A stretch of DNA of 64,000 nucleotides from Natronolimnobius baerhuensis. Its GTDB lineage: Archaea; Halobacteriota; Halobacteria; Halobacteriales; Natrialbaceae. Positions 34,215 through 41,610 of this stretch are shown piece by piece. The stretch spans positions 558,001-622,000 of the forward strand of contig NZ_MWPH01000001.1 of the NCBI RefSeq assembly GCF_002177135.1, in the 5' to 3' direction. The translations under genes were made by a program, and so were the position numbers. Below the pieces are notes generated by a model. It saw nothing but the letters and a program-made list of their open reading frames with translations. It was not told the origin of the DNA and did no database searches. The stretch's first letter is position 1, and every line of letters begins with the position of its first letter.

Positions 34215-34430
34215 TCAGTCGCCCGCGTGAAAGAGCGTCAGTTCGCCCGTCTCGTAGATATTGAGCAGTTCGGTCACCAGTTCGTCGTACGATTCGTCTT
34301 CGATTCGCAGGCCGTCTACCCGCTCGACCGTTTCGCCCTCGAGTTCAATCTGAGATATGGCTCCACTCGAGTTTCGCTTTCGAGAGGCAAAAACGCCGCG
34401 GGGAAACAGGCGTTTTACTGCCTGAAACAT
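34215..34430 (-). CDS. small conserved haloarchaeal protein, antitoxin-like
   Basis: Residues from about 25 read ISQIELEGETVERVDGLRIE and then DESYDELVTELLNIYE, a strand plus two helices like the ribbon-helix-helix DUF7557-type proteins of haloarchaea. The expected start of such proteins would fall at the ISQ position, but the codon there is ATA rather than ATG. I therefore use the ATG at 34430, which adds a basic lead of 24 residues. Whether the start is real or the gene is decaying cannot be told. No toxin gene is adjacent. Confidence 0.55.
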   Translation of the reverse strand: MFQAVKRLFPRGVFASRKRNSSGAISQIELEGETVERVDGLRIEDESYDELVTELLNIYETGELTLFHAGD

Positions 34431-34502
34431 ACCGTAAGGCGAGTTTCAGGAAATCCGTCGAAAGCCACAGCATCTTTACGGACGCTCCCCAACCGTAGGG
34501 GT

Positions 34503-34793
34503 ATGTCCGACGACGTAGACACAATTACGCTCTCGATTGAAGCCGACGACGAAACGACCGACGACGTGACCATCCCGGCCGGCCTCGTCGACCTCGTCGC
34601 CGAAGGCGACCAGACCACCGCCGAAACCGTCGGCGACATCGCGCTGCTGTCGTTCGCCAGCCGCGCCCACCACATCGTACACCACGGCCAGGACACAGAC
34701 GAAGACCTCGAGGCCCAGGAAGCGCGCATCATGGATCTGTTCGAAGAACGCTTCGGCGTGACGTTCGGCGAAGCGACCGGTCACCAGCACTAA
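34503..34793 (+). CDS. DUF7545-like small haloarchaeal protein
   Basis: The acidic protein has 96 residues. It begins MSDDVDTITLSIEADDETT, with beta strands to about residue 30, a helix TAETVGDIALLSFASRAHHIV, and a C-terminal helix (RIMDLFEERFGVTFGEA). Histidines cluster near the end and in HHIVHHG, which may bind a metal. The function is unknown. The promoter region includes ctttac at 34474-34479. Confidence 0.7.
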   Translation: MSDDVDTITLSIEADDETTDDVTIPAGLVDLVAEGDQTTAETVGDIALLSFASRAHHIVHHGQDTDEDLEAQEARIMDLFEERFGVTFGEATGHQH

Positions 34794-34855: not shown

Positions 34856-37800
34856 CTACGTGAGCGCAGCCGTTGGCTCGTTCGTCTCAGCCGGTTCTGT
34901 CGACTCGTCTCCTGTCGGTTCGTCAGCGTCCGGTGAGTTGTCGGTGTCACCCGGTTCTCCGTCAGTATTGTCCGTCTCACTGGACTCATCGGGGTCACCC
35001 GTCTCGTCGGTTTCATCCAATTCTGTCGTCTCGTCGGACTCGTCCGTGTCGGTTTCTCCAGTTTCGTCTTCGTCACCAGTTACCGGCTCGGTCTCGTCAG
35101 TCTCCGTCGTCTCGTCAGCGTCGGCCTCTGTCGTCTCATCAGTTTCGTCAGCGTCGTCGACTCCAGGCACGTCCGGATCGGCAAGCCCTTGGACCGTCGC
35201 CGTCCCGGCATCGTCCTCGGTCGCAATTTCGTGGACCGACTCCCCTTCTTCCGCTTCGGACGTGAACTCGAGCGTTTCGGTCTCGCCGCCCTCGAGGTCG
35301 AGTTCCATCTCGTCGACGAGGTCGTCGTCGACGCTGTAAGTGACGGTCTGGGTTCCCTCGAGGTCGCCGACGTTCGTGATGTCTGCTTCGACGGTGACCT
35401 CCTCACCGACGGAGGCGACTGGATCAGCGAAGACGAAACTAACTGCGAACTCGGCGACCTCACCGGCTTCCTCGACTGTCACCGGCACCTCGTCGCTGTC
35501 GTCTTCGCTCGCGACGACTGCGGTGTACTCATCCGGTTCGATCTCGTCCGTGTCAGCGGTCAACGTCACCGACTCAGTCTCGTCGCCCTCGAGTTCGACC
35601 GTCTGTGAATCCACTTCGAGATCGAGTTCGGCCAGCGAGAGCGTGACGTTCTGCTCGCCGGCTTCGTCGCCGATGTTCTCGATGTCGGCGTCGACCTCGA
35701 GTGCGTCACCCTGCTCGACGGGCGAGTTCGTCTCGGTGATCGAGACGCTGTAGTTTGCGGGGTCGTCCGTGTCGATCTCGCCCGCTGGCTCGGTTTCGGC
35801 GGTGAGTGGCTCGTCGTAGCCGTGGTTGGTCATATCGACCTCCCAGACGAGTCGTTCGTCGTCGGTTTCGGGCGTCCACAGGGCCGTGAACTCGTGCTCG
35901 CCGGGCTCGAGTCCGCCGACTGGCTCGTCTTCGGTCGTTCCCTCGACGTACTCGCTGATGACCGCGAGCGGCTGGTCGTTCGGGTTATCGTAGCCGAAGG
36001 TCACGTCGATCCCGTCGTCATCCTCGAGCGGTTCAGTTTCTTCGACGCCGATGTCGGGCTGTTCGGGCCGGATCTCCTCGAGACAGGTCTCAGAATCCGG
36101 GTGTGGGTGGTCGATGCCAGCGACCGGAATCGCTTCGTCCGAACTGATGCCCGTGATCGCGGTGCCGAAGTCGCCGTAGTCGTTGACGCCGACGGTCACT
36201 TCGTCCTCGCCGGTTTCCGTGACGCCATCGTCGGCGTCGATGTCGAACACAATCGTTCCGATAAACGGTGCCTCGATGTCGTCGCCAACGGTGATGAAGT
36301 CCTCAATGATCGTGTTGCCGTAGCCGGCAGTGTCGTAGAACCCGGTGCTGGCAGCGACTTGCTCGCCGTCCTCGAAGTTGCCGGTCACCTCCGCTCGCGT
36401 GCAGTCGGTGAACTCGACCATGAACGTCGGATCGACCGTGTACTCGAGCGAGTCCGCAGCCAGCGTCTCGCCCTCGTCGGTCGACTCGAGGGCGACGTCG
36501 ACCGTCGCATTATCCGTCAGCGGCTGCTCGAGGTCGACCGTTTCGTTGTTCAATCCGGTATCGGGCGCGAACGGCTCGGTTTCGACCAGTTCCGTCTCGT
36601 TGGCCGTCGCCGTCAGCATGTACTCGACCGAGGCGTTGGTCTCTTGCACCGTCAGCGTCTGTCCGTCGCCGGTCTGGTCGGTCACGTCGAGGACGGCGTC
36701 GGTTTCACCGGGATCGTCGGGGTCGTCAGCGTCCTCGAGCGTGTACGTAATCGTCTCACTCGCCAGCGTCTCGTCGTCGTCGCTGGCGCGCACGGACACG
36801 TCGACCGTCGTCTCGTCCTCGAGTGCTGGCTCGAGGTCGATCTCGAGGCCGGTCACGGGTTCGTCCGCATCGAACGTCTCACTGTCGACGCGCTCGCCGT
36901 CGTACTCGGCCGCGACGGTGTAGTCCTCGCTCGCGTTCGCCTCGTCGACGAGAAGCGTCTCGCCGTCACCGGTCTGGTCGCTCACCGAGAGCGTTGCCTC
37001 GGGATCCGGTTCTGGGTCGGGGTCTGGCTCCTCGTCACCGACCGTCACGAACGCGCCGTCGAGAACCGGGCCACCGCTTGCGGTGACGTACGGCTCGTCG
37101 TCCGCGCCGTCGCTCTCGACGTACTGGAACGTCTGGTCGTCGGTCGTATCGTGATGGACGACTGCGACGAGCGGCTGGCTCTCCTCGAGCGACTCATCGA
37201 GGCCGATCTCGAGATTCTCGTGTTCGCCGCTCTCGAGGTAGTCGGAGACGCCGATGACCGCTTCAGGGTCCACATCGGTTGCGACACCGTCGTAGATCGC
37301 GACGAAGCCGCCCTCCGAGAGGTCGACGCTGTCGACGACGACGCTCTCGCCGTCGGACTCCTGATCCGCGAACGTGATCGAGGCTGTTCCCTCGAGTTCG
37401 TCGATCTCCTCGATTGTCTGGGTGATCTCGATTTGGACGTGCTGGACGATCTGCGTGACGTCGTCAGTGTCCTCGCTGACGGCGTACGCCGTTGCATCGG
37501 CCGCAGTGTCCTGCGTGAGAATCTGCAGTTGCGTGATGCTGATCTGCTGGTACTGGATCGCTCGAGCGGTCTCCTCGCAGGCGGTCTGGGCCGCCGTCTG
37601 AATCTGCGTGACCGTCGCCTCCTGATGCTGGACGAGCGCGCCGCTCGAGGCACCGTGGGCGAGCGTCTGGACCTGCGTGACGTCGACGACCTGCGTCTGG
37701 GTGACCGCACCCTGACCAGCGCCGTATGCAGCGGCCTGGATTTGTTCGATTTCGATGACCTGGTGCTGGATTGCCGATTCAACTGCCCCCTTCGAGGAGC

Positions 37801-39112
37801 CAAGCGCAGCGTGTTGGATCTGCGTTACCGAAACCTCCTGATACTGGGTGAGGCTACCCTGTGCAGCCCCGTCAGCCGCCGCCTGAATCTGCTCGACGCT
37901 CGCCGCTTGGCTCTGGGAGATCGACCCCTTCGAGGCACCGAAGGCCGCTTCCTGAATCTGGGTGATCGAAATGCGCTGGACCTGCTCGACCGTCACCGAC
38001 TGGACCTGTGTCAGCGAGCCTTTGCTCGCCCCGCGGGCCGCGGACTGGGTCTGCTCGACATTCACTTCCTGGCGCTGCTCGAGTGCACCTTTCGCCGCGC
38101 CCGTCGCCGCCTTCTGGATCTGCTTGATATCGACGCGCTGGTGCTGTTCAACCTCGACATCCTGGGCCTGCTCGAGTGCCGCCTCAGTGCTCCCCTCGAG
38201 CGCACCAGCCGAGGCTCCCGCTGCTGCGTGCTGGACGTGCTCGAGCGTGACCTGCTGGCGCTGCTCGACAGTGATCTTCTGATACTGCTCGAGGACGCCG
38301 TAGGCTGCACCTTGTGCGGCTTCCTGAATCTTCGGCGTTCGCTCGATGTCACGCTCGCCGGCTTCGCTCGCCGCACCGGCGGCCGCGCCGTAGGTTGCAA
38401 CCTGAATCTGCTCGACAGTCACGCGCTGTTCCTGCGCGAGCGCACCGTGGGTCGCGCCCCAGGTGGCACTCTGCATCTGGGTCGCGGTGACCGTCTGGTG
38501 CTGGGCCAGCGCGCCATCAGTTGCGCCACCGACTGCGTACTGGACCTGCGTCGCGTTCACCTCTTGCTCTTGCATCATCGAGCCGTGGACCGCCCCTTTC
38601 GTCGCCTCCTGGACCTGCTCGGCATCGGCTTCTTGATGCTGGCTCGCCGCGGCACTCGCCGCCTCGAGCGCCGCTGCGTGCTGTTCCTGCGTCACCTCGA
38701 CACCTTGGGACTGAGCAAGTTCGACACCCTCCTCGACACCGGCTTCGACGGCGTCAGGAACGTCGGGGTCATCCTGCGTGGCTGCCGCGTCGGTCTCAGC
38801 TGTGTCGGCATCCGCCTCTGCGTCTGTGTCGTCCAATCCGATTGGCGACTCGAGTGCCAGTACCTCGACATTACCCTGACTGGTCGTCTCAGGGGTCGAC
38901 TGGTCGTCGGCTCCGTCGCTACCGTCATCGTCGCCGTCCTGTTGTGCGTCAACGTCCGTCAGCACAGTCTCGTCGTCTGGCGTCTCCTCACCGTCGGCAG
39001 TGCCGTCCGCGAACGGGGTGACCCCGCCGCCGAGCAACGGCAACGCGACGACGCTTGTGATCATCAACGCGGCGATCAGCACGACACCGAGTGCTCCCTG
39101 TTGCCACCTCAT
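34856..39112 (-). CDS. giant secreted surface protein with Gln-ladder repeats and CARDB-like domains
   Basis: The protein has 1418 residues from the ATG at 39112. A hydrophobic signal (about 5-35, ALGVVLIAALMITSVVALP) is followed by an acidic linker to 135. A repeat region covers 138-570, a DUF7282-like domain about 575-690 (SITFADQESDGESVVVD), and two related beta repeats 700-900 (SVSDQTGDGETLLVDE, DVTDQTGDGQTLTVQE). A Cys-bearing domain follows (FMVEFTDCTRAEVTGNF), then two CARDB-like Ig folds 1140-1320 and a Thr/Glu/Asp tail. No PGF-CTERM or C-terminal anchor is seen. It is probably an adhesin or S-layer-associated fibre protein. Confidence 0.88.
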   Translation of the reverse strand: MRWQQGALGVVLIAALMITSVVALPLLGGGVTPFADGTADGEETPDDETVLTDVDAQQDGDDDGSDGADDQSTPETTSQGNVEVLALESPIGLDDTDAEADADTAETDAAATQDDPDVPDAVEAGVEEGVELAQSQGVEVTQEQHAAALEAASAAASQHQEADAEQVQEATKGAVHGSMMQEQEVNATQVQYAVGGATDGALAQHQTVTATQMQSATWGATHGALAQEQRVTVEQIQVATYGAAAGAASEAGERDIERTPKIQEAAQGAAYGVLEQYQKITVEQRQQVTLEHVQHAAAGASAGALEGSTEAALEQAQDVEVEQHQRVDIKQIQKAATGAAKGALEQRQEVNVEQTQSAARGASKGSLTQVQSVTVEQVQRISITQIQEAAFGASKGSISQSQAASVEQIQAAADGAAQGSLTQYQEVSVTQIQHAALGSSKGAVESAIQHQVIEIEQIQAAAYGAGQGAVTQTQVVDVTQVQTLAHGASSGALVQHQEATVTQIQTAAQTACEETARAIQYQQISITQLQILTQDTAADATAYAVSEDTDDVTQIVQHVQIEITQTIEEIDELEGTASITFADQESDGESVVVDSVDLSEGGFVAIYDGVATDVDPEAVIGVSDYLESGEHENLEIGLDESLEESQPLVAVVHHDTTDDQTFQYVESDGADDEPYVTASGGPVLDGAFVTVGDEEPDPDPEPDPEATLSVSDQTGDGETLLVDEANASEDYTVAAEYDGERVDSETFDADEPVTGLEIDLEPALEDETTVDVSVRASDDDETLASETITYTLEDADDPDDPGETDAVLDVTDQTGDGQTLTVQETNASVEYMLTATANETELVETEPFAPDTGLNNETVDLEQPLTDNATVDVALESTDEGETLAADSLEYTVDPTFMVEFTDCTRAEVTGNFEDGEQVAASTGFYDTAGYGNTIIEDFITVGDDIEAPFIGTIVFDIDADDGVTETGEDEVTVGVNDYGDFGTAITGISSDEAIPVAGIDHPHPDSETCLEEIRPEQPDIGVEETEPLEDDDGIDVTFGYDNPNDQPLAVISEYVEGTTEDEPVGGLEPGEHEFTALWTPETDDERLVWEVDMTNHGYDEPLTAETEPAGEIDTDDPANYSVSITETNSPVEQGDALEVDADIENIGDEAGEQNVTLSLAELDLEVDSQTVELEGDETESVTLTADTDEIEPDEYTAVVASEDDSDEVPVTVEEAGEVAEFAVSFVFADPVASVGEEVTVEADITNVGDLEGTQTVTYSVDDDLVDEMELDLEGGETETLEFTSEAEEGESVHEIATEDDAGTATVQGLADPDVPGVDDADETDETTEADADETTETDETEPVTGDEDETGETDTDESDETTELDETDETGDPDESSETDNTDGEPGDTDNSPDADEPTGDESTEPAETNEPTAALT
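37403..38701 (-). repeat. coding repeat region, about 23-residue units with Gln ladders
   Basis: Within the surface protein, residues 138-570 carry about 15 units of the pattern VxVxQIQxAAxGAxxGALxQ followed by xQ. Examples are VTATQMQSATWGATHGALAQ and ISITQIQEAAFGASKGSISQ. Gln at fixed points alternates with small residues (Ala, Gly, Ser). Some units are spaced by partial copies (VTVEQVQR, VEVEQHQR). The DNA repeats are diverged, so the array is old rather than a recent expansion. Confidence 0.85.
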
Positions 39113-39565
39113 AGGCCACGCCCACCGGCACTCGCCACAGTTGATCCAGCCAGTTGCTGGTCGCGTTCTGGTCGCATCCACGCGGGTCGCGCGCAGTGTG
39201 ATTCCTCCTCAATCGAACCGTCCCATCCCACGCCATAGCACCGCTGTTTCGCCCCCGCGTCGCAATACCATCGGTCGTCAGCAGTTGCACTACCGGATTG
39301 CATTGGTTTCCGACCACGGGACCGAATCGACGCATAAACACGCCGGTCGTTTCGGTTAGCCAGCGGATACAATCCCGTATTACTCACCGTTTCGCCAGAC
39401 TGAACCGGCCTCAATCGACCGCACAGTGACACCTCGAGCGCTGTCGCTGCCCGCGGCCGGCCAGCCTCGAGTAGCCACGTACGTGAGAGGAAGCCCGGTG
39501 TTTCGGCGTGTATATCCACCGCAGGCAGCCGTCTCCTCGAGCCACGGATTACGATATCACTAGGT
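39113..39565. other. intergenic region between the surface protein and bioY
   Basis: No gene could be supported in these 450 bp. Short open frames here lack acidic, coherent protein sequence. The region must contain the surface-protein promoter. Only scattered CTCGAG and GC-rich sequence is seen before the BirA-like operator that follows. Confidence 0.5.
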
Positions 39566-39597
39566 TCGTAAACCGATGTTTTGATTACTGTTTACGA
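39566..39597. promoter_or_regulatory. BirA-type biotin operator upstream of bioY
   Basis: TCGTAAAC (39566-39573) and GTTTACGA (39590-39597) are perfect inverted repeats 16 bp apart. Their core GTAAAC and GTTTAC and the spacing match the BirA operator known from bacteria and archaea (TTGTAAACC and GGTTTACAA half sites). The site ends 13 bp before the bioY ATG, where it could block transcription in the presence of biotin. No birA gene is in the window. Confidence 0.65.
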
Positions 39598-39610
39598 GCG
39601 AGCGTCTGGC

Positions 39611-40189
39611 ATGGCAACTGACCAGCAGTCGGTCGACCTCGTCGAGGGCGATGTCGTCCGCTCGTTCGCACGCGCAGCGCTGCTCGCTGTGCTTATTGGC
39701 GCATCTGCGCCCGTCGCAATACCAATTGGGCCGGCACCGATCACGCTGCAAGTACTGTTCGTCTTCCTCGCTGGCCTCGTACTCGGCCCGCTGTGGGGAA
39801 GTTTTTCGATGGTACTCTATCTCGCCGCGGGCGCGGTCGGCGTTCCGGTCTTCGCGGGGATGGAAACCGGCTTTGGCGTGCTCGTTGGTGAGACGGGCGG
39901 CTACCTCTGGTCCTACCCCATCGCCGCGGGTCTCATCGGTCTGTTCGTCCACCGCGGCACGGACCTGCGCGACCCCGCTGAACAGCCACTTATCCTCGTC
40001 GTCATCGCGCTTCTTGCCGGGCTGGTCGTCATCTACGGCATAGGCGTCAGCTACATGGCCCAGGTGCTCCGGCTGGACCTGTGGGAGGCGCTCCTCGTTG
40101 GGATGATCCCGTTTATCCCCGGCGACCTGCTCAAACTGGCCGCCGCAATCGCTATCGTCAAAAGCGGCCGGCTCAACGTGGCCAACTAG
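39611..40189 (+). CDS. bioY: biotin transporter substrate-binding membrane protein BioY
   Basis: The protein has 192 residues and six membrane segments. It is the S component of an energy-coupling factor transporter. The first helices with SAPVAIPIGPAPITLQVLFVFLAGL match the BioY signature P-IT-Q. The segment AGAVGVPVFAG and the C-terminal IPFIPGDLLKLAAA are also typical. The bioM gene starts 3 bp after its stop. The short upstream operator suggests biotin-responsive control. Confidence 0.95.
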   Translation: MATDQQSVDLVEGDVVRSFARAALLAVLIGASAPVAIPIGPAPITLQVLFVFLAGLVLGPLWGSFSMVLYLAAGAVGVPVFAGMETGFGVLVGETGGYLWSYPIAAGLIGLFVHRGTDLRDPAEQPLILVVIALLAGLVVIYGIGVSYMAQVLRLDLWEALLVGMIPFIPGDLLKLAAAIAIVKSGRLNVAN

Positions 40190-40192
40190 TCG

Positions 40193-40912
40193 ATGATCGA
40201 ATTCCGATCCGTCTCGTACGCCTTCGGCGACGTGCCCGTCCTCGAGGATCTCTCACTCGAGATCGGCGACGGCGAGTTCGTCCTCCTCGCGGGCGCAAAC
40301 GGCAGCGGGAAGACGACCCTGTTGCGCCACTGTAACGGCCTGCTCGAGCCCGATTCGGGAACCGTCGTCGTCGATGGCACGCCAGTCGCCGACAACGTGG
40401 TCGCCGCCCGCTCGAGTGTCGGCATGGTCTTTCAGCACCCACGTGATCAGTTCGTCGCCGCGACCGTGGGTGCCGACGTCGCCTTCGGCCCCGAAAATCT
40501 CGGCCTCGAGTGCGACGAGATCGACCGACGCGTCGAAAATGCGCTCGAGGCGGTGAACCTTGCGGGGCGCAAAGCCGAGCGCATCGACGCACTTTCGGGC
40601 GGTGAGCAGTCTCGCGTCGCCATCGCTGGCGCGCTCGCGATGGAGCCGAGTCACCTCGTCCTCGACGAACCCTTCACCGGACTCGACGACCCCGCCCGCC
40701 GATCCGTCCTCGAGCGCCTCGAGTCGCTCTCGGCCGCGGGAACCGGCGTCGTGCTTGCGACACACGACCTGCGTGACGTGTTCTCCCTTGCGGACCGCGT
40801 CGTCGCCATGCAGGCGGGACAGGTCGTTGTCGATGACGCGCCGACGCGGGCACTCGCCGACCTCGAGTCACTCGCGATCCGGATTCCGGAAACTACCCGC
40901 GAACGATGTTGA
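40193..40912 (+). CDS. bioM: ECF transporter ATPase BioM
   Basis: The protein has 239 residues with Walker A GANGSGKTTLLRH, the Q-loop region FQHPRDQFVA, signature LSGGEQSRVAIAG, Walker B LVLDEPFTG and switch region ATHDLRDVF. This is the cytosolic energy subunit for BioY/BioN. It begins 3 bp after bioY and overlaps the start of bioN by 7 bp. Confidence 0.95.
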   Translation: MIEFRSVSYAFGDVPVLEDLSLEIGDGEFVLLAGANGSGKTTLLRHCNGLLEPDSGTVVVDGTPVADNVVAARSSVGMVFQHPRDQFVAATVGADVAFGPENLGLECDEIDRRVENALEAVNLAGRKAERIDALSGGEQSRVAIAGALAMEPSHLVLDEPFTGLDDPARRSVLERLESLSAAGTGVVLATHDLRDVFSLADRVVAMQAGQVVVDDAPTRALADLESLAIRIPETTRERC

Positions 40913-41610
40913 CCTACGAACCCGACGACACCCTGGCTCACCGGCTCGATCCGCGCGCAAAACTCGCGGTCCAGATCGGGTTCGCCACAACAGCGCTGGC
41001 ACACACTACGATCCCAGCACTGGCCGTCCTTTCACTGCTGACGGCCGGTATCCTGTACAGCACGCGCGTCCACCTCATTCGGACGCTCGTCGCCTTCCGA
41101 TTCGCGCTCGCCATCCTCGTAATTGCCCCGCTGATCGCCGCGCTCACACTCGGGCCAACCTGGATCGACTGGGCCGACGGACAAGCCTCCCTGCAGGCCA
41201 GTTACCGCGTGGTGCTCATCCTCCTCGTCAGCGCCGCCTACGTCCGCTCGACGCCGATCCGGCACTCGAGAGCCGCGATCCAGCGGACGATTCCGGGCAA
41301 ACCGGGCCAATTACTTGGCATCGGCATCGCGCTCGTCTTCCGATTCCTGCCGGTGATTCAGCGCGACATCACAACCATTCGGGACGCGATGGCTGCCCGA
41401 CTTGGAACCGAACGGAGCGCACTCGAGCGCGCTAGCACGCTCGGCATTCGCAGCCTTGCGCGAGCGTTCGAGCGAGCTGATCGGCTCTCGCTCGCCCTGC
41501 AAGCGCGGTGTTTCGCCTGGAATCCGACGCTTCCGCCGCTTGCGTTCTCGAGGCGTGATTGGGGCGTGCTCGTCTTCGCGTTGGCGCTCGGGCTGACAGC
41601 AGTGCTGTGA
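40906..41610 (+). CDS. bioN: ECF transporter transmembrane subunit BioN
   Basis: The protein has 234 residues with membrane segments in the first half and the coupling-helix region ALERASTLGIRSLARAFERADRLSLALQAR in the second. That second part carries the A-R-G-like motif (LQARCFAW) of the CbiQ/BioN T component. It completes the BioYMN biotin importer. Its gene overlaps the end of bioM. Confidence 0.93.
   Translation: MLTYEPDDTLAHRLDPRAKLAVQIGFATTALAHTTIPALAVLSLLTAGILYSTRVHLIRTLVAFRFALAILVIAPLIAALTLGPTWIDWADGQASLQASYRVVLILLVSAAYVRSTPIRHSRAAIQRTIPGKPGQLLGIGIALVFRFLPVIQRDITTIRDAMAARLGTERSALERASTLGIRSLARAFERADRLSLALQARCFAWNPTLPPLAFSRRDWGVLVFALALGLTAVL

Follow-up and report, generated by a model that had tools for sequence, protein, structure and literature searches.

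A 23-residue repeat array in an exported haloarchaeal protein, a probable glutamine-edged alpha-solenoid

The window analysed here, 64,000 nucleotides from Natronolimnobius baerhuensis, contains a gene for a 1418-residue protein in which 461 residues (116-576) form an array of about 17 helix units, most of them 23 residues long. We consider it probable that this array is a finite, capped alpha-solenoid, packed through Ala and Gly and bordered by Gln along both edges, which is exported to the cell surface and displays a DUF7282 and CARDB-like domains. In our searches no curated family or solved structure was found that covers the array. The chances appear about even that it represents an undescribed class of helical repeat, i.e., single-helix 23-residue units which alternate as hairpins, are packed by GxxxG and Ala, are edged by Gln on both sides and provide Halobacteriales with a salt-stable, low-charge extracellular scaffold. 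If true, this adds an unannotated helical-repeat family, nearly universal among the members of one haloarchaeal family, and protein design could use the regular unit as a scaffold.

Gene and domain layout

The gene (1418 aa plus stop) occupies 34856..39112 on the minus strand, to which all feature coordinates below refer; its frame is open upstream to 39181. An earlier note on this DNA had delimited the frame correctly, leaving the strand unstated. An antisense ORF of 1138 aa at 35822-39238 on the plus strand was rejected as an Arg/Leu-rich artefact of GC-rich coding.

Hydropathy and homologue conservation delineate a hydrophobic export segment at the N-terminus (residues 1-30, 39023..39112), in which the motif VALPLLGGG is conserved. 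A poorly conserved acidic linker (residues 31-115, 38768..39022) leads to the array. This begins with two cap-like terminal helix units without a GxxxG spine which carry the conserved sequence QGVxV[TS]QEQ (residues 116-161, 38630..38767). The core array follows (residues 162-498, 37619..38629), with the consensus V[TSND][VI][ET]QIQxAAxGAxxGALxQxQx, units of mostly 23 residues and a few +3 and +8 units. Cap-like C-terminal units, more acidic and likewise without GxxxG, conclude it (residues 499-576, 37385..37618).

The DUF7282 domain (PF23951; residues 577-690, 37043..37384) is identified by Pfam with an E-value of 2.8e-37 and 127.8 bits against a gathering threshold of 27. Next to it, two related segments are seen in the sequence (residues 706-894, 36431..36997), each starting with [AV]xLxVxDQTGDG; they resemble the start of DUF7282 at a level below the Pfam threshold. 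Homologue conservation defines a two-cysteine domain at residues ~895-1040 (35993..36430), for which Pfam gave no match. Two CARDB-like domains are located at residues ~1116-1330 (35123..35767); the best Pfam stretch for CARDB (PF07705), residues 1231-1296, reaches 24.7 bits at a gathering threshold of 22.7 (E 2.8e-5). Both domain types had been proposed from the sequence beforehand and are confirmed. The protein ends in a variable Asp/Glu/Thr-rich tail without a hydrophobic anchor (residues 1331-1418, 34859..35122).

In the Pfam scan of the whole protein DUF7282 and CARDB were the only matches and the repeat array stayed uncovered; for the array there was also no NCBIfam match and no PDB sequence match. 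The protein shares its display domains with other haloarchaeal DUF7282 and CARDB proteins and differs from them by the extra, unannotated N-terminal array. Elsewhere in the genome (C3:336590-337294) a frame of 402 aa matches the protein in the DUF7282 region and over part of the CARDB region, and lacks the helix repeat.

More than 70 homologues were examined and each has a hydrophobic segment at its N-terminus, in support of the earlier proposal of an exported haloarchaeal repeat protein. In the family this segment runs into the conserved VALPLLGGG, a sequence that would fit cleavage by signal peptidase (Sec) or a retained anchor alike. Some paralogues possess Tat-type signals, which would mean export after folding. 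A C-terminal hydrophobic segment with a basic end, as in archaeosortase (PGF-CTERM-like) anchors, is absent in the window copy, just as had been read from the sequence. Such a segment with basic residues is present in relatives from other families (L057, L059, L060, L106, L107, L110, L113).

The repeat unit

The 23-residue period is far beyond chance. Identity at lag 23 amounts to 123 matches compared with a shuffle mean of 45.3 (sd 6.1, maximum 65; 2000 shuffles), and the strict unit pattern is found in nine units compared with a shuffle mean of 0.0015. The earlier note had counted about 15 units from residue 138 to 570; its repeat stands, the extent is somewhat wider. Its two Gln rows at fixed spacing hold as well: QxQ pairs recur over residues 134 to 530 and, as the glycines of GxxxG do, stay almost invariant, also across families. 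Across homologues 23-residue units prevail (n=455), followed by units of 26 (+3, n=69), 31 (+8, n=41) and 25 residues (+2, n=11).

The unit sequence carries helix-cap signatures. In 84% of 261 units position 2 is occupied by T, S, N or D, residues that serve as helix N-caps. The Q occupies N3, and the hydrophobic residues at positions 1 and 6 correspond to a hydrophobic staple. As a sequence feature this supports a model with one helix per unit.

The variable positions 4, 8, 11 and 15 make up one exposed face. In 16 arrays with 184 units the likeness of this face was 0.203 for units two, four or six apart versus 0.133 for units one, three or five apart, a difference reached in none of 2000 shuffles; the effect sits at positions 4, 8 and 11 and is weak, absent or non-significant in some single arrays. 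This alternation suggests a two-unit (46-residue) structural repeat, likely a helical hairpin. This evidence is independent of AF2.

Predicted structure

The most confident model was obtained for the homologous array from Haloarcula rara, which is 47% identical to that of the window. With 34 sequences AF2 reached a pLDDT of 88.1 and a pTM of 0.86, and four of five models were at pLDDT 87-88. Each unit contains one helix of 16-17 residues (overall range 15-21 residues), and the linkers comprise 5-7 residues. The window's own array was predicted as all helix with the same helix-per-unit pattern at pLDDT 65 and pTM 0.49; this model is confident mainly in the N-terminal third, and its middle is below pLDDT 50. 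As in the alpha-solenoid fold class, tandem helical units with a regular period are predicted, and so is a compact, confident stack of helices when judged by the homologous array (pTM 0.86; window copy 0.49).

A long coiled-coil stalk was rejected since the helices of the Haloarcula rara model, 15-21 residues long, are broken by linkers. Of the long helical stalk considered in the earlier note the helical character has survived, being nearer to the prediction than any beta structure; the single long helix or coiled coil has given way to many separate helices of 16-17 residues. We have encountered neither a plain coiled-coil fold nor a known, studied family, either of which the earlier note had named as speaking against its proposal.

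The note had also proposed a curli-like or amyloid beta-solenoid, i.e., a fibre subunit. Like the curlin repeats of CsgA the array has a period of about 22-23 residues and Gln at fixed spacing, and it contains V-x-V stretches. Unlike them it lacks an Asn ladder and is predicted to be helical. The confident all-helix model of the homologue, the Ala-rich sequence with its helix caps, the fixed unit order and the cap-like ends all argue against a curli-like fibre. Pfam gave no curlin match, and hhalign against CsgA repeats returned a probability of 0.1%. The structure and curlin checks proposed at the time have thus favoured the helical over the beta part of that reading, and a curli-like fibre is most improbable.

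How are the helices connected? In an LRR-like alpha/beta solenoid each turn would consist of a helix and an extended QxQxV return strand; all helices would run parallel, and the strands would form a parallel sheet with a true Gln ladder. In the linkers conserved positions do take turns with variable ones (Q x Q x V), an alternation that the +2 and +8 insertions preserve, and a strand of 7 residues could conceivably just span a helix of 16 residues. However, one strand per turn would be expected, and neither AF2 model, of the window array or of the Haloarcula rara array, contains any strand; some linkers contain short helical turns instead. Further, the two-unit alternation of the exposed face is unexpected for identical parallel turns, and no Pfam LRR match was obtained. 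We regard an LRR-like fold as unlikely.

The linkers of the predicted model seem not long enough to return along a helix of 25 A. Neighbouring helices are most likely antiparallel; their direction and handedness are inferences. Accepting the all-helical solenoid, successive helices would pack via their GxxxG/Ala faces, probably in alternating direction, and two units would build one hairpin. The QxQ pairs at the start and just past the end of every helix would then line up in hydrogen-bonded Gln rows on both edges of the stack.

Relation to known folds

Alpha-solenoid repeat classes such as TPR, HEAT, TAL and PPR have been reviewed (PMC11514114); where the review gives unit lengths, these are about 34 residues for TAL and TPR and 31-36 for PPR, with two helices per unit. 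The array resembles alpha-solenoids in that tandem helices are packed in an open stack. It differs from TPR, TAL and PPR by its unit of 23 residues with a single helix, which packs through GxxxG/Ala and has QxQ at either end. No profile match of the array to TPR, HEAT, ARM, ANK, PPR or TAL was obtained in Pfam scans up to E 10.

When the confident model was compared with solved structures by Foldseek there was no global match (best TM 0.32); local matches were to TALE and designed helical repeats. The designed flat repeat FD15 (PDB 8ugc), recovered with a Foldseek probability of 0.98, is also a flat helix-turn-helix-turn stack; yet it is artificial, has a TM of only 0.31-0.32 and shows no sequence relation. 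A library of viral structures contained no match. The literature on DUF7282, Gln-rich repeats, haloarchaeal amyloids and secreted alpha-solenoids yielded nothing on this repeat family.

Charge and ends of the array

Asp and Glu account for 10.7% of the core array compared with 31.5% of the downstream part; Gln makes up 17%. Such a low charge in a haloarchaeal exported protein is notable. Halophilic proteins normally use acidic residues; the array uses Gln and Ala/Gly instead, an unusual design for saturated salt. The Gln-edged stack may constitute a rigid slab of low charge.

Conceivably the alpha-solenoid might polymerise end to end or sideways and form an extracellular filament or matrix, i.e., a fibre associated with biofilm or S-layer. 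A repetitive, low-charge, Gln-edged stack could well associate, and in some paralogues (L120) the arrays are longer or more regular. Yet the first and the last units of the array are degenerate: GxxxG is missing and acidic residues are more frequent. This is how caps should look, and it speaks against a fibre with open ends. In addition, large globular domains come after the array, and the number of units is almost fixed within the family. Polymerisation therefore seems improbable to us. The terminal units would rather cap the stack, and the array would be a monomeric scaffold on which DUF7282, the CARDB-like domains and further extracellular domains are displayed outside the membrane.

Conservation and distribution

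The array was identified in 104 of 125 Natrialbaceae genomes, usually as one colinear copy and mostly at 59-79% identity. Carriers include Natronorubrum, Natrinema, Natrialba, Haloterrigena, Halopiger, Natronococcus and Halovivax; more distant ones are Halorussus, Haladaptatus, Halosimplex, Haloarcula, Halorientalis and Halobaculum. In a sample of the order 124 of 392 genomes were positive, 45 of them from other families, and in a sample of the phylum 13 of 295, all from the order Halobacteriales. A scan of one genome each of 84,980 species, at the sensitivity of two seed patterns, disclosed no lineage outside Halobacteriales. The search in other archaea that the earlier note had suggested has thus recovered the pattern in further families of the order and not beyond it. 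Phage or mobile origin was considered and rejected: phage records and IMG/VR viral contigs contained no array, and the two plasmid matches are both haloarchaeal.

Across homologues no other part of the protein is as well conserved as the array. Against three relatives its dN/dS values are 0.11, 0.19 and 0.19, each time the lowest of all segments. Single units, e.g., QEAAQGAAYG, hold the same place across families; hence its architecture is fixed, unlike that of an expanding repeat. Because DNA-level tandem repetition is almost absent from the window gene the units are taken to be ancient. By its sequence record, then, the array is old and strongly conserved. That conservation should peak here, in an exported protein of very large size, points to an important surface function, which has not been studied as far as the literature searched shows.

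Gene neighbourhood and paralogues

The repeat gene lies between the divergent bioY-ecfA-ecfT genes of a biotin-type ECF transporter (window 39581-41610) and a convergent neighbour of unassigned function (window 34227-34793). The same arrangement is found in nearly all loci of the family examined with enough flank; in one exception (L054) the bioY-ecfA-ecfT link is absent. A BioYMN transporter has been described from the genome of Natrialba magadii, a biotin auxotroph (PMC3403918). A biotin role from operon context was rejected, since neither L054 nor the other families show the link. In the latter the neighbours are unrelated, and because synteny is lost we claim no functional link to bioY-ecfA-ecfT. 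The gene neighbours point to no function for the repeat protein.

Several paralogues and divergent relatives depart from the layout of the window protein. Two small paralogues with Tat signals, L118 (3185-4213, minus) and L119 (3095-4141, minus), have about three helix units and a Lys-rich stretch; their tails consist of octapeptides of the QSQSVDVS type, resembling the +8 insertion of the main array. Another Tat-signal paralogue, L120 (1676-4822, minus), is very regular, and most of its units have 26 residues, i.e., one more helical turn. Downstream of the array L124 and L125 carry DTDGDG calcium-binding-like (TSP3-type) repeats together with Ig-like domains and, at the C-terminus, a hydrophobic anchor. 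L126 (946-7254, minus) is a relative of 2102 aa in which a NosD-like, beta-helix-looking region and a long low-complexity EEP tail come after the array.
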